Source of the DNA: a filamentous cyanobacterium CCP2
GTDB lineage: Bacteria; Cyanobacteriota; Cyanobacteriia; Elainellales; Elainellaceae
Direction: 5' to 3'
Length of the DNA: 38,934 nt
Assembly (NCBI GenBank): GCA_003003615.1
Contig: PVWD01000025.1
Coordinates: forward strand, 1 to 38,934
Below are positions 33,628-38,484 of this stretch, piece after piece. Under the pieces are notes generated by a model. It ran no database searches. It was not told the origin of the DNA and saw nothing but the letters and a program-made list of their open reading frames with translations. Position 1 is the first letter of the stretch. Each line of letters opens with the position of its first letter. The position numbers and the translations under genes were made by a program.

Positions 33628-33758
33628 CTGAGCCAGGGGCGATCGGATTTGCAAAGAATCTACTGAGCCGAATCGTTAACATGATGCAAAATTTACCAAT
33701 CGATCTCAGCAAAATCCGATAGCACCTTTGTCAAGTAAATGCCTGCAGCACTACATTT

Positions 33759-33782
33759 TAAGTATTAGTACTTAGTTTTTTT
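33759..33782 (+). terminator. Rho-independent-like terminator after sds
   Basis: TAAGTA (33759-33764) pairs with TACTTA (33769-33774) around TTAG, then T7 at 33776-33782. It is AT-rich but compact. A second palindrome, TGAAGCTTGCTTCA at 33784-33797, follows at once and may serve the convergent gene. Confidence 0.5.
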
Positions 33783-33805
33783 GTGAAGCTTGCTTCATGA
33801 TAAAT

Positions 33806-34282
33806 TCAGGCAATATCAGGCGGCAGATTCGGCTTTTGGCGTTGTTGCTGAACGACTGTACGGATCATGTCCTGTAAATTTTGACGTGTAACTTCCGTGC
33901 CAGACTTTAAATTTCCAGGAGTTTCAAAAAAAACGATGCTATCGACTGGCTTCATTGCTAGCATTTGGAATAGGATTTGAATAACGGGTAACGGTAAAGC
34001 CACAACCTGGGGATCATTACTGGGAGCTTGTGGGCTTGCCGCAGCATCCTTGAGTGTCGGAAAGGCATAGACCACGTTTTTAGTCATGCCGGGCTGGGTG
34101 CGGTGCGACAGGGTAGTCATCAACCAATTTTGCTCAAGGGTTTGCAACACAAAATATTGAGGGTGCTTCAGCCGTTTGGCAATGGCTGTCAGAGCAGGAG
34201 CGATCGTTGAAATGTCTTTAGGATTTGCCCCGTATTGGGGAGCCTGCTCAATCAGAAATTGAATTTGCTGCTCTACATTCAT
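33806..34282 (-). CDS. Protein of unknown function divergent from hetZ
   Basis: 158 residues, soluble. It begins MNVEQQIQFLIEQAPQYGAN and has a long helical N-terminal half, PLPVIQILFQMLAMKPVDSI in the middle and a charged C-terminus. I do not recognise a family; it reads like a conserved cyanobacterial protein of unknown role. It shares an 85-bp divergent upstream region with hetZ, so the two may be regulated together. It converges with sds. Confidence 0.75.
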   Translation of the reverse strand: MNVEQQIQFLIEQAPQYGANPKDISTIAPALTAIAKRLKHPQYFVLQTLEQNWLMTTLSHRTQPGMTKNVVYAFPTLKDAAASPQAPSNDPQVVALPLPVIQILFQMLAMKPVDSIVFFETPGNLKSGTEVTRQNLQDMIRTVVQQQRQKPNLPPDIA

Positions 34283-34331
34283 GGCTAAATGGTGTGGGTC
34301 AGTTGGGGTGCAAGTGACATTTGTTCCCTCA

Positions 34332-34344
34332 GTCTAGATTAGAC
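34332..34344. promoter_or_regulatory. Short inverted repeat in the hetZ/unknown divergent promoter
   Basis: GTCTA (34332-34336) and TAGAC (34340-34344) flank GAT, 24 bp upstream of the hetZ ATG. Heterocyst regulator HetR binds inverted repeats centred on a TCTA-containing core in Anabaena, but the outer G/C arms of those sites are lacking here. The ribosome-binding GGAGGA lies at 34351-34356. Confidence 0.3.
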
Positions 34345-34367
34345 CTTCCTGGAGGATTGGGCGACAA

Positions 34368-35576
34368 ATGGGATGCCAAATTGATTGTGTTAGCGTGATA
34401 GGCAACGAATTTCCATCAGGGGGACGATACCGAAGCGTGGAGGCGATTTTTCAGCTAGTATTCAGTGAACTAAAGCAGTCCACTCGCGCATCTGAACAAA
34501 AATGTCTGGATGTCACCCATCGTGTTACTGAAGAGGTGAACCGGATCTGTACAGAGAGCAAGCGCATTCAAGCGTCTGGCGAGGTGGAAGCATGGTCTAC
34601 TACTTTAGCGCGTCATCGCCTGAAGCAGTGCCTTAAATACTATCAGCTTGGTTCACATCGGGGTCGAGTTGAGCTGCACAGTACGCTTAGTGCAGTCGTT
34701 TATCGTTACATTACACCGCCTCAAGTTCAGTCAAGCTATCAGGCGCGTCTAACGTTAATAGAAGATTTCCTACAGGGTTTCTACATTGAGTCGTTAAATG
34801 CTTTTCGCCGTGAAAACCAACTCCCTTCTGACTACCGTCCCAGAGGTTTACTGGAACTAGCAGAATACATGGCATTCACTGAACGGTATGGCAAACGTCG
34901 AATTCCGTTACCGGGACGGCGTAGCCAGCAACTCATTATTTTACGGGCGCAAACCTTCTCTCAGCAGCAGCCACCCGAAACAATGGTGGACATTGAGCAG
35001 GCTGCGGAAGGCTCATCTGGCGAATTTGATAACCGGAGTGCGGTTCCCATGCCTCAAGTGCGGGAGCAAATGATGGCAATGGAGCCAGAATTGACTGAAG
35101 ACGCACTGCGAAATACGGTGATTTCAGAGCTAATGAGCTATTTAGAGGAGCGTCAGCAGCAGGATTGTGCGGATTACTTTGCTTTGCGCCTTCAAGATCT
35201 ACCAGCAAACGAAATTGAGGCTATTCTAGGGTTAACGGCTCGACAACGAGACTATTTACAACAACGATTCAAGTATCATTTGATTCGTTTTTCTCTCTCT
35301 CACCATTGGGAACTTGTGCATCAATGGCTAGAAGCTGATCTTGAACGAAACTTGGGGCTGACACCTCAACAGTGGCAGATTCTCCAAGAGCGGATCACCA
35401 CTCAGCAACAGGAACTTTTGCGCCTGAAGCAAGACGGGGTGACAGATGCCATGATTGCTCAAACAGTCGGTATCACGCCAACCCAGCTTCAAAAGCAGTG
35501 GTCAAGATTGCTGGAACAAGCCTGGGAGATCCGAAATAGTATAATGTCCGGATCAAGTAAATCAGCGGATGAATAG
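34368..35576 (+). CDS. hetZ: HetZ, heterocyst-differentiation-type regulator
   Basis: 402 residues, the length I recall for HetZ in Anabaena. FQLVFSELKQSTRASEQKC, LARHRLKQCLKYYQLGSHRGRVELHSTLSA and LIEDFLQGFYIESLNAFRREN are strongly HetZ-like. The C-terminal half has two helix-turn-helix-like stretches (LQDLPANEIEAILGLTARQR and DGVTDAMIAQTVGITPTQLQ). In Anabaena HetZ is an early regulator of heterocyst formation, a DNA-binding protein whose gene is a HetR target. GGAGGA lies 11 bases before the ATG. It is followed by patU on the same strand (83 bp), the same order as in heterocystous strains. Confidence 0.92.
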   Translation: MGCQIDCVSVIGNEFPSGGRYRSVEAIFQLVFSELKQSTRASEQKCLDVTHRVTEEVNRICTESKRIQASGEVEAWSTTLARHRLKQCLKYYQLGSHRGRVELHSTLSAVVYRYITPPQVQSSYQARLTLIEDFLQGFYIESLNAFRRENQLPSDYRPRGLLELAEYMAFTERYGKRRIPLPGRRSQQLIILRAQTFSQQQPPETMVDIEQAAEGSSGEFDNRSAVPMPQVREQMMAMEPELTEDALRNTVISELMSYLEERQQQDCADYFALRLQDLPANEIEAILGLTARQRDYLQQRFKYHLIRFSLSHHWELVHQWLEADLERNLGLTPQQWQILQERITTQQQELLRLKQDGVTDAMIAQTVGITPTQLQKQWSRLLEQAWEIRNSIMSGSSKSADE

Positions 35577-35659
35577 TTTCATGAAGGAATCATCAAGTTT
35601 GCCTGAACAGACTTGAAAATTTCGCAACATTTTTATATCCGGAACAGGGGCATCTATCC

Positions 35660-36697
35660 ATGAATAATGACGCAGAAGCCATAAAGCAGTTGTTTGATTG
35701 GCTATTGCATGAACTAGACCCGGCTACTTCATCGCCATCAGGGAAAAAATCTAGTCTTGAGACTAGTTCAACCGAGTCCGGGGCATTTTATTCACAGTCC
35801 ATACTTGACTCTCTCGATTCCAATGGGACAGATGGGTTCCCCCCCCCTGATGAATCGAGTTCGTTCCCATTTAGGCAAATCTCGTCATTAGAAATCGGAG
35901 AAATACCTGCTGTGCAAGACCGTTTTCAAGCCTTGTTGAAGCGTCGGCTCCGCGCTGAGATCGAACGGAATCCTCCCCGTTTTCCCTGGGAGACCGGAGC
36001 TTTTGACTATGACTCTGAGTATTTAGACGTATCCAATCCTGATTTGATTCCGGCGGTTTGGATGAGTCAACTGCAATCGTTGAGCTTGCCTGTTCCTGTA
36101 CCCGATCGGGTTTTAGCTCAATTGTTTGAACAGTGCCGAGAAGTTGTGATGACTTCTTTGCAGGAAGGAGCAAAGTTGGTGAAGGCGGTGGAGGCTCTTT
36201 TTCCGGGGCAGCATCAAGCCTTAAACCAACTGGCGAGCTTGGTGCTTTCCGCTCCTCCTCGTTCTGGACGATCGGTTTTACAATCTCCGACTTCGACTTC
36301 GGCTTTTCCTAGCCATTACGATGTTGCTACACCAACTCAGCAGATGGCTCTATCGCTGATTGCGGCACGGGAGATTTTCAACACGATGACGTTAAAGCTT
36401 TCGCCAAACCAGCCTGGTGCTGAGCGAAACTGGTTAACGGATTCGGGTGTATTGAGCTTAGAGGCAGCGTATCAGCCTGAGATTGGGCAAGTCCGCCTTC
36501 AGGGAACACTACCCTGTCAGGGAGAATTATGCTTCCGGAGTGCAACGGGGCGATCGGTGGCTCAAGCTTCTGAAGCAGGTATTGTGACATTAGAACTGCA
36601 CAACCTTGAACCGAATCAGACTTATTTCCTAGAGGTGCAGCTTGAAGATGAGCCATCTTCCTTAGTGTTTGCAGTTTGTCTCGCTACTGAAGAATAG
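35660..36697 (+). CDS. patU: PatU, undivided pattern-formation-type protein
   Basis: 345 residues. The first part (IKQLFDWLLHELDPATSS, residues 8-25) matches what I recall of PatU5. The rest (RFQALLKRRLRAEIERNPPRFPWE, about 90-113, and RSATGRSVAQASEAG plus the closing FLEVQLEDEPSSLVFAVCLA) matches PatU3. In Anabaena sp. PCC 7120 patU is split into patU5 and patU3 after hetZ; here one frame spans both, which is probably the ancestral state. A variable Ser-rich linker (about 25-85) joins them and includes a run of C residues near 35841-35846. Cotranscription with hetZ is likely. Confidence 0.88.
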   Translation: MNNDAEAIKQLFDWLLHELDPATSSPSGKKSSLETSSTESGAFYSQSILDSLDSNGTDGFPPPDESSSFPFRQISSLEIGEIPAVQDRFQALLKRRLRAEIERNPPRFPWETGAFDYDSEYLDVSNPDLIPAVWMSQLQSLSLPVPVPDRVLAQLFEQCREVVMTSLQEGAKLVKAVEALFPGQHQALNQLASLVLSAPPRSGRSVLQSPTSTSAFPSHYDVATPTQQMALSLIAAREIFNTMTLKLSPNQPGAERNWLTDSGVLSLEAAYQPEIGQVRLQGTLPCQGELCFRSATGRSVAQASEAGIVTLELHNLEPNQTYFLEVQLEDEPSSLVFAVCLATEE

Positions 36698-36929: not shown

Positions 36930-37328
36930 TTAGGTTTCTACCATTTTCGTTGTAAGAATGATCCAATTGCTGGACTGTTCATCGAAACCAACGATATAAA
37001 CATCAATCTCGATAGTTCCAACTTGATATATCTTTACCTCGCTCAATGTTTGTTCGATTAGCTCAACCAGGTTATGAAATCGCTGAACGGTTGCCTGCTC
37101 CTCCTCACCATGCCAGTCTTGGGCTTGAAGGGCTGAACTGAAAAATTCTCGTAATTCGATCGTTTTTACCGGACTATCCTGAGCGTGTTCTGTTTGCTCC
37201 AAAAGCTCATCTACAGTTGGAGCATCCTCCCCTTGCCACAGAACCACCTCAAATGGGTAGTCCGTTTCGCTGGGAAAATACAGACCGTCGATCGTGGTTT
37301 GGAATTGGGTTAAGAGGGTGGGAGACAT
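36930..37328 (-). CDS. nuiA: Nuclease A inhibitor-like protein (NuiA family)
   Basis: 132 residues. TTIDGLYFPSETDYPFEVVLW at the start (residues 11-31 by position) and YQVGTIEIDVYIVGFD near the end are the NuiA pattern; the Anabaena protein binds and blocks the sugar-non-specific nuclease NucA. No nucA gene is in the window, so a solitary immunity or regulatory role is possible. The ATG is directly preceded by a pyrimidine-rich heptamer repeat, so there is no ribosome-binding site. An upstream start inside the repeat would give a nonsense N-terminus, so I keep this ATG. Confidence 0.85.
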   Translation of the reverse strand: MSPTLLTQFQTTIDGLYFPSETDYPFEVVLWQGEDAPTVDELLEQTEHAQDSPVKTIELREFFSSALQAQDWHGEEEQATVQRFHNLVELIEQTLSEVKIYQVGTIEIDVYIVGFDEQSSNWIILTTKMVET

Positions 37329-37529: not shown

Positions 37530-37577
37530 CGCTCCCCACTCCCCACTCCCTACTCCCTACTCCCTACTTCCTACTTC
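37530..37577 (+). repeat. STRR-like heptamer array overlapping the puuE 3' end
   Basis: Eight or so CCCCACT, CCCTACT and CCCTACTT/TCCTACTT units. The last units encode the C-terminal Gly-Ser-Arg-Lys of the PuuE-like protein on the minus strand and supply its TAG stop at 37564-37566. Confidence 0.75.
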
Positions 37578-38484
37578 CCTCTGGCCGATGATGCTCATGC
37601 CAATGGCGGGCAATATCTACTCTACGGCAGAGCCAAACCCGATCGTGCTGTTGCACATAATCTAAAAACCTTGCCAGAGCAGCGGTGCGTCCGGGTCTGC
37701 CAACTAGACGGCAATGGAGTCCGATGCTCATCATTTTTGGGGCGGTTTCGCCTTCGGCATAGAGCGTATCAAAGGCATCGCGAAGGTAGGCAAAAAACTG
37801 ATCGCCAGAATTGAAGCCTTGGCTGGTGGCGAATCGCATATCGTTGTTGTCGAGGGTGTAGGGGATGACGAGATGGGGTTTGCCGTAGTTCTGTACCCAG
37901 TAGGGTAGATCATCTGCATAACTATCGGCATCATAGAGAAATCCGCCTGCTTCGACGACGAGTTTCCGGGTGTGAGGGCTATTGCGTCCGGTGTACCATC
38001 CGAGGGGGCGGCTGCCAGTAACTTTGGTATGAATTTCGATCGCCTTTTGCAAATGCTCTCGTTCTGTTTCAATCGGAAAATACTTGTAATCAATCCAGCG
38101 ATATCCATGACTGGCAATTTCCCAATCTGCTTCTTTCATGGCGGCAACTGCTTCTGGGTTGCGTTCCAGTGCCATTGCCACACCATAAACAGTGACGGGA
38201 ATCTGACGTGACGTGAATAACCGATGCAGCCGCCAAAACCCTGCCCGACTGCCATATTCATACATCGATTCAATATTCATGTGCCTTACCCCCTGCAAGG
38301 GTTCGGCTCCAATAATTTCGGTTAGAAAGGCCTCGGCAGCTTGATCACCATGCAAAATGCAGTTTTCGCCGCCTTCTTCATAATTAATCACAAACTGCAC
38401 GGCAATGCGGGCTTGATGGGGCCATTGCGGATCAGGGGTATAGCGACCATACCCAATCATGTCTCTGGGGTAGCGATCGGACAT
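37564..38484 (-). CDS. puuE: PuuE-type allantoinase (polysaccharide-deacetylase fold)
   Basis: 306 residues. PuuE opens the hydantoin ring of allantoin to allantoate without a metal, in purine catabolism. The start YPRDMIGYGRYTPDPQWP, then ARIAVQFVINYEEGGEN and MYEYGSRAGFWRLHRLF, are diagnostic of this branch. The zinc residues of true polysaccharide deacetylases are replaced (NYEEG, SHGYRW), as expected. WYTGRNSPHTRKLVVEAGGF and MMSIGLHCRLVGRPGR follow. The last residues are templated by the heptamer repeat. No other allantoin or urate genes are in the window. Confidence 0.88.
   Translation of the reverse strand: MSDRYPRDMIGYGRYTPDPQWPHQARIAVQFVINYEEGGENCILHGDQAAEAFLTEIIGAEPLQGVRHMNIESMYEYGSRAGFWRLHRLFTSRQIPVTVYGVAMALERNPEAVAAMKEADWEIASHGYRWIDYKYFPIETEREHLQKAIEIHTKVTGSRPLGWYTGRNSPHTRKLVVEAGGFLYDADSYADDLPYWVQNYGKPHLVIPYTLDNNDMRFATSQGFNSGDQFFAYLRDAFDTLYAEGETAPKMMSIGLHCRLVGRPGRTAALARFLDYVQQHDRVWLCRRVDIARHWHEHHRPEGSRK

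Follow-up and report, generated by a model that had tools for sequence, protein, structure and literature searches.

In Anabaena sp. PCC 7120, hetZ is followed by a patU gene that is split into patU5 and patU3, and patU follows hetZ in many filamentous cyanobacteria (PMC7377430; this and the other papers cited were accessible in part, and what is credited to them is limited to the accessible portions). PatU3 counteracts HetZ, to which it binds by way of its C-terminal part, patU5 has no phenotype (PMC7377430), and HetF is able to cleave PatU3 (PMC12288457, a review). A putative promoter inside hetZ serves patU5-patU3, with transcription start sites located within hetZ and no motif named in the accessible text (PMC7377430). 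The hetZ-patU pair has already been published in filaments without heterocysts (PMC7377430, PMC2821919, PMC11298460). In 2010, hetR, hetZ and patU3 were counted among the core genes of filamentous species, and their function was held to be probably more general (PMC2821919), and the role of hetR and patX in filaments without heterocysts has been called a mystery (PMC11298460). Here we analysed the hetZ-patU locus of the filamentous cyanobacterium CCP2, located on contig PVWD01000025.1, a stretch of 38,934 nt that is referred to below as the window. The pair itself is ordinary. The explanation that we judge to have an even chance of being right is that its patU is a nested gene, with a DIF1-type promoter at the hetZ/patU junction and feedback of a short PatU form on HetZ. 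The role of hetZ-patU in filaments without heterocysts is, to our knowledge, as open as that of hetR and patX, and a regulatory hexamer and an internal start kept across the sampled filamentous lineages would bear on that question.

In the window, hetZ and then patU lie on the same + strand, with both frames open as described in the initial annotation. The hetZ frame as first given covers 34368-35576 (402 codons). Its product scored 649.4 bits against the NCBIfam HetZ equivalog model NF037963 (cut-off 550, model positions 1-366 of 366) and missed the cut-off of the related family NF037964 (538 versus 612 bits). Directly behind it, patU at 35660-36697 is a single open frame of 345 codons, and its two nearest relatives align across residues 1-345 at 61% identity. 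The claim that one frame spans both PatU parts held, as the N-terminal part (approximately residues 1-17) and the core (residues 80-345) are in frame, and over the core PatU can be aligned to PatU3 from two split loci, L180 and L181 (Anabaena catenula FACHB-362). A frameshift at a nearby run of C was rejected, since the N-terminus and the core share one frame, as in the aligned undivided relatives. The run consists of nine C at 35839-35847 rather than occupying 35841-35846, and it is translated through in frame.

Of 60 relatives, 51 had PatU. In a sample of 291 genomes from across the class it was present in 150, which represent 77 of 130 genera. For the comparisons, 189 loci were assembled, 109 from PatU searches and 80 from a HetZ search, and the two sets overlap in some genomes. 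A HetZ match was found on the same strand in 108 of the 109 PatU loci (the exception was L099), a count in which the HetZ frames of L047, L072, L093, L096 and L105 came out very short.

The hexamer at the hetZ/patU junction

The DIF1-type hexamer TCCGGA is found at 35638-35643 (+), where it is non-coding and precedes the patU ATG by 22 nt. TCCGGA followed after 15-16 nt by ATGAA or a near variant was found in 107 of the 109 loci from the PatU searches (16 nt in 98 and 15 nt in 9; the misses were L099 and L102) and in 79 of the 80 loci from the HetZ search, where the single miss was at a contig end. The hexamer is thus positioned 21-22 nt ahead of the conserved ATGAA, which sits at or just before the patU start. 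In many families the hexamer encodes a Ser-Gly pair of the HetZ tail, and the hetZ stop often overlaps the patU start (ATGAATAA). In the whole genome of CCP2 the composite pattern occurred twice, both times at the hetZ/patU junction.

We considered whether TCCGGA could be a mere codon choice for Ser-Gly. The HetZ-tail Ser-Gly was coded TCC-GGA in 143 of 145 loci, and in the HetZ body TCC makes up 13.8% of the Ser codons and GGA 19.1% of the Gly codons; five loci without a recognised HetZ tail (L014, L066, L099, L140 and L183) were excluded from the codon count and from the tree described next. One of the two exceptions, L003, kept the hexamer in a copy on the patU side, and the other had it at a second Ser-Gly. 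A tree was built of 148 distinct HetZ tips, after identical sequences had been collapsed and short ones removed. Among its 113 tips that code for Ser-Gly, TCC and GGA changed at the third base 0 and 1 times, respectively. In the same 113 tips, the third bases of nearby preceding codons changed 9 (Glu), 12 (Ile), 22 (Arg) and 19 (Asn) times. The coding of Ser-Gly itself changed at least 11 times on the HetZ tree, and the element was present in 145 of the 148 tips, with ATGTA instead of ATGAA in two of the three tips that miss it. In 39 loci HetZ did not code for Ser-Gly at this place, and in 38 of these the hexamer was found downstream (the miss was L102). The codon bias, the frozen third bases and the persistence of the hexamer when non-coding exclude mere codon choice: the junction hexamer is under selection at the DNA level, tied to the patU start.

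Published sites of the DIF1 motif, TCCGGA, are centred at -35 (PMC6133370, PMC7377430), and a synthetic DIF1 promoter was composed of the motif, a 17-nt spacer and the region from -13 to the transcription start (PMC6133370). By count, this design of 6, 17 and 13 nt would place the start 36 nt from the T of the hexamer. In the window, the predicted start is the A at 35674 (+), within patU codon 5 and at a pyrimidine-purine step. Such a step was found 35 or 36 nt past the T of the hexamer in 142 of 147 tips: 113 of 118 in which the patU frame runs through, 24 of 24 in which the stretch is non-coding and all five others. The wobble base of patU codon 5 was A in 111 of 118 tips, compared to 22% at TCN/GCN codons elsewhere in patU.

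The junction in the window is doubled. A first TCCGGA copy at 35547-35552 (+) codes for Ser-Gly of the HetZ tail and is followed by N16 and ATGAATA, and the region 35547-35666 holds a decayed tandem copy of the hetZ-end/patU-start junction, with the copies 91 bp apart and 52 identities over 95 positions. The tandem copy is common to the window and the relatives L003 and L004/L114, and further doubled junctions were seen in L013, L014, L015 and L140. The doubled junctions (L002, L004, L013, L014 and L015; L114 and L140; L003) were chosen by the presence of two hexamers, or of one beside patU, so they are uninformative on the rate at which the patU-side copy is lost.

Probable translation starts within patU and hetZ

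A second conserved site was found in the body of patU. The putative internal translation start at 35897-35914 (+) consists of GGAG in codons 80-81 and GTG as codon 85 (35912-35914). In a scan of third-base change over 176 patU codons, the lowest nine-codon window was codons 78-86, at 0.26 of expectation compared to a median of 1.08, and this was the sole deep trough in the gene body; the 5′ end of patU (codons 1-9) gave 0.44. Little synonymous change was seen across codons 80-88. Gly80 was GGA in 137 of the 137 tips that have Gly there, with 0 changes, and Val85 was GTG in 134 of the 141 tips with Val there. Most deviations at codon 85 keep a start codon, namely ATG in L071 and L170, TTG in L102, or another start that lies one to three codons upstream. 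An in-frame start codon was present within codons 82-85 in 142 of 144 tips. For the 228 four-codon windows that served as a control the median was 0.23, and the highest value, 0.89, belonged to a window that begins at the conserved Met229. In 137 of 144 tips a Shine-Dalgarno-like 4-mer (GGAG, GAGG or AGGA) preceded the start by no more than 24 nt, compared to 16.5% at random codons. In the 14 loci with a split or truncated patU, codon 85 was GTG in 13 and TTG in 1, and in 8 of the 14 no other start was available beyond the last stop.

A similar signature marks the likely start of hetZ and serves as a positive control for the internal start. Codon 24 of the hetZ frame was GTG in 126 of the 145 tips with a codon there, 33 of 144 tips had no in-frame ATG, GTG or TTG upstream of it, and codons 17-25 formed a trough of synonymous change (0.36). 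Upstream of this codon a G-rich 4-mer was present in 121 of 127 loci and a strict Shine-Dalgarno-like 4-mer in 68 of 127, and the distance from the G-rich 4-mer to the start was 12-14 nt in 91 of 121 loci. HetZ translation probably starts at 34437-34439, 69 nt inside the frame that opens at 34368, because the GTG at codon 24 is conserved and some loci lack any upstream in-frame start. The likely hetZ coding region is then 34437-35576 (+, 379 aa), with CAGGGGGA upstream, and the N-terminus of HetZ proteins listed as approximately 401 aa may be misassigned. A search of 33701-34440 for a HetR site (GGGN5CCC) found none.

The conservation at codons 80-88 suggests that patU holds a second translation start for a PatU3-like protein of 261 aa. 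This putative nested short PatU, the equivalent of PatU3, would be encoded at 35912-36697 (+) and would comprise a helical core and a C-terminal beta-sandwich. Thus, patU may make two proteins.

Competing explanations and the undivided gene

How could the two conserved sites work together? In a nested patU, a hetZ-patU transcript would give full-length PatU, with translation starting at the ATG of 35660. The junction would hold a further promoter, of the DIF1 type, with TCCGGA (35638) serving as the -35 element and transcription starting at A35674. Since this start lies inside codon 5, the shorter transcript would begin past the first start codon, so that full-length PatU could not be made from it; translation would begin at the internal GTG (35912) instead. 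The product would be the 261-aa protein, which corresponds to PatU3 in genomes with a split patU. HetZ is required for the DIF1 promoters of hetR, patS and patX (PMC7377430). Because DIF1 promoters need HetZ, and because PatU3 binds and restrains HetZ, HetZ would promote production of the very protein that holds it back. This would amount to negative feedback inside the operon, independent of heterocysts. The Anabaena-type split would merely drop the long form. If true, the nested short form would explain why PatU can be split, and also why there is an Anabaena phenotype of patU3 and none of patU5, as the short form would always be a separate product.

Several observations weigh against this mechanism. 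At the internal site, L080 and L100 have no start, and the spacer behind the Shine-Dalgarno-like sequence was 11 nt in 130 loci, which is above the textbook length, although the 12-14 nt at the hetZ start soften this objection. At the junction, the hexamer is absent from L102 and lies more than 200 nt downstream in L092 and L105 (251 and 561 nt), and the conserved ATGAATA is partly accounted for by the HetZ stop together with the PatU start. At the predicted transcription start, the pyrimidine of the step is mostly dictated by the Ser/Ala codon where the stretch is coding, so that only the purine is informative. Published DIF1 promoters have an AT-rich extended -10, and the 13-nt candidate -10 stretch here is only 8/13 A/T. 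In the 24 of 147 tips with a non-coding stretch, an ATG that fits the patU start follows the hexamer at a distance of 41-42 nt; in these the DIF1 transcript could encode full-length PatU behind a leader of 5-6 nt, and the idea that it yields the short form only therefore fails for those 24 tips. Finally, an exact TCCGGA was not found in the 2 kb upstream of the patX-like open reading frame (ORF) and hetR of CCP2, so DIF1 control of hetR is not seen in this genome.

A tentative alternative, clearly less probable than a nested gene, is that the locus is one operon transcribed from the hetZ promoter, that a single full-length PatU binds HetZ, and that the conserved sites have another purpose, for example in coupling translation, in stabilising the mRNA or as some other RNA feature. 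The adjacency and role of hetZ-patU are published (PMC7377430), and the overlap of the hetZ stop with the patU start in many loci suggests coupling. However, patU keeps the hexamer in 38 of the 39 loci where HetZ does not code for it, so coupling alone is an insufficient explanation, and changes at the internal site preserve a start codon in all but two of 144 tips.

Somewhat less probable again is that TCCGGA is an operator placed over the start of a housekeeping-type promoter, with the AT-rich TTTAnTA immediately upstream, a 17-nt leader, AGGGG as a Shine-Dalgarno-like sequence and full-length PatU as the product. The constant 21-22 nt to the ATG fits a fixed short leader, and an alignment of 98 loci showed AT-rich sequence before the hexamer and a G-rich spacer at +9 to +12, a signal that partly follows HetZ codons where HetZ codes here. 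In contrast, published TCCGGA sites are centred at -35 (PMC6133370, PMC7377430), and an operator would leave the purine wobble of codon 5 and the step in the 24 non-coding cases unexplained.

The initial annotation had suggested that the pair with its undivided gene may serve an older role than heterocyst patterning, and the distribution of the two states speaks to this. Of the 189 loci, 174 could be judged for a split, and in the other 15 the core was missed by the search pattern. Undivided patU, defined as a conserved start in frame with the core and no stop, was found in 155 loci, 6 of which run off a contig end; under a looser count 160 loci are open. Split or truncated patU, defined by a stop at most 40 codons upstream of codon 85, was found in 14 loci, and 5 were unclear (L015, L101, L108, L133 and L154, the last of which may carry a frameshift). 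Undivided patU is the usual form. By taxonomy, the undivided loci include the heterocyst formers Nostoc punctiforme NIES-2108 (L191) and Fischerella thermalis PCC 7521 (L173), and in Anabaena catenula FACHB-362 (L181) patU is split. In family f32, which includes a Cylindrospermum contig, 9 of the 15 genomes taken were split and 6 undivided. Truncated patU was also found in family f13 (L085, L087 and L102), and since these truncations stand besides those of f32, the 5′ part was probably lost on at least two occasions. Where a split or truncated locus carries the hexamer (13 loci), the 5′ remnant frames were 5-111 codons long.

It is thus very improbable that the undivided gene signals an older, pre-heterocyst role specific to non-heterocystous filaments, since hetZ-patU does occur in many relatives of the window but undivided patU is also found in heterocyst formers and a split or truncated patU has a scattered distribution (14 of 174). 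Nostoc punctiforme and Fischerella refute the undivided state as a sign of life without heterocysts, and the wider idea of an older role is left standing. The assumption that CCP2 has the background of a non-heterocystous filament agrees with the taxonomy of its family (f1), whose members Leptolyngbya sp. FACHB-8, Kaiparowitsia implicata, LEGE 07170 and FACHB-502 we take to be filaments without heterocysts.

Proteins, genome background and known systems

PatU matched neither an NCBIfam model at E ≤ 0.001 nor a Pfam family at E ≤ 0.1. A structure model built from 54 sequences (pLDDT 77.6) predicted an N-terminal helix at residues 3-16, disorder over most of residues 23-79, helices at 85-243 and a beta-sandwich at 244-341. 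The helix belongs to the conserved N-terminal region of full-length PatU (MNxDSEA..., residues 1-17) at 35660-35710 (+). It is followed by the Ser-rich linker at 35720-35896 (+), whose variability, as first described, was borne out by the alignment, and most of residues 23-79 had pLDDT below 50. Inside this otherwise variable linker, patU codons 26-28 (35735-35743, CCA-TCA-GGG) showed below-expected change (0.43-0.49), and CCATCAGGG, as at these codons, also precedes the hetZ start in the window. The PatU model had zero Foldseek matches at E ≤ 0.001. For the C-terminal beta-sandwich, FN3/CBM-like domains were similar in fold (best Z 8.4, rmsd 3.2, 84 aligned), a likeness that is hardly informative on function. 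The sensor domain of the anti-sigma factor RsgI4 was among the fold matches (Z 6.9), no better than unrelated sandwiches.

We also considered whether HetZ could be a divergent sigma-like factor that uses TCCGGA as -35, with the short PatU as an anti-sigma-like partner expressed from a HetZ-driven promoter. We regard this as doubtful. The NCBIfam sigma70-ECF model TIGR02937 scored 27.3 bits on the HetZ of the window, below the cut-off of 42.9, and matched 43 of 58 HetZ members at E ≤ 0.01 (best 1.9e-7). The signal was confined to two helix-turn-helix (HTH) stretches, and residues 1-242 alone gave no sigma match. In the HetZ structure model (pLDDT 72, pTM 0.46), fold comparison with chains preselected by Foldseek listed mostly sigma factors. 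The -35 domain of SigD aligned on residues 332-391 (Z 8.5, rmsd 1.7, 60 aligned), and SigW aligned on residues 12-95 (Z 8.2, rmsd 2.8, 75 aligned), a possible counterpart of sigma region 2 (core binding, -10) that had no sequence support; by the tool's own note, Z values of approximately 8 may mean little for helical models. A Foldseek search of the HetZ model against the PDB had a best E of 0.39. Profile comparison peaked at the HTH at 334-376 with a probability of 63% (5.9% for the reversed control) and gave no support for the N-terminal half. The HetZ profile had seven matches among PDB sequences, all at E ≥ 0.27, five to DNA-binding regulators and two to designed proteins. HetZ as a proven sigma factor was therefore not accepted, given the score below cut-off, the weak Foldseek E, the middling model and the absence of N-terminal sequence support. 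If true, a sigma-like HetZ would explain the unusual -10 of DIF1 and the requirement for HetZ. Filamentous cyanobacteria would then possess an ancient switch that limits itself and was put to use for heterocysts at a later stage, and cleavage of PatU3 by HetF would be its release step.

The CCP2 assembly is 6.95 Mb and 96.9% complete. The genome search for hetR and nif genes that had been proposed returned hetR (HetR_C match, 148.9 bits) and nifH (466 bits, cut-off 394). Upstream of hetR there is a small patX-like ORF that ends in HFHRGSGR (L111, contig C152, minus strand), as would be expected for PatX. Because the genome has hetR, the patX-like ORF and nifH, the organism may fix nitrogen. 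Two more HetZ-like genes scored below the HetZ cut-off (C290:6169-7263, 516 bits, and C406:19535-20470, 92 bits). In the window, patU is adjoined by a gene for a NuiA-like nuclease inhibitor at 36930-37328 (-; PF07924, 139 bits), and a gene for the allantoinase PuuE is found at 37564-38484 (-; TIGR03212, 557 bits).

A hetZ-patU pair with an undivided patU is known and ordinary, and the novelty of the hexamer and the nested start is unconfirmed: in the accessible portions of the open literature searched, we found no account of a junction hexamer at patU or of a nested start, and earlier work may hold one. Compared to sigma-70/ECF factors, HetZ shares HTH segments similar to sigma region 4 but misses the curated sigma cut-off. 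Leptolyngbya sp. BL0902 is likewise non-heterocystous and has hetR, patX and hetZ-patU (GFS31_16620-16630; PMC11298460). It differs in that BL0902 is without nif whereas nifH is present here, and in that a DIF1 promoter is predicted for its patX-hetR and no exact TCCGGA was found in the 2 kb upstream of the patX-like ORF here; for the BL0902 junction, the accessible text describes no promoter (PMC11298460). With the DIF1 (DIF+) promoters of hetR, patS, patX and nsiR1 the junction shares the same TCCGGA and a purine at the designed start, but the hexamer here sits on a start codon inside an operon, with a transcription start that is predicted only. Another close system is hetZ-patU5-patU3 of Anabaena sp. 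PCC 7120. In both loci hetZ is followed by PatU sequence, which in CCP2 is one frame and in the Anabaena-type split is divided, leaving a 5′ remnant that measured 5-53 codons in 11 split Nostocales loci.

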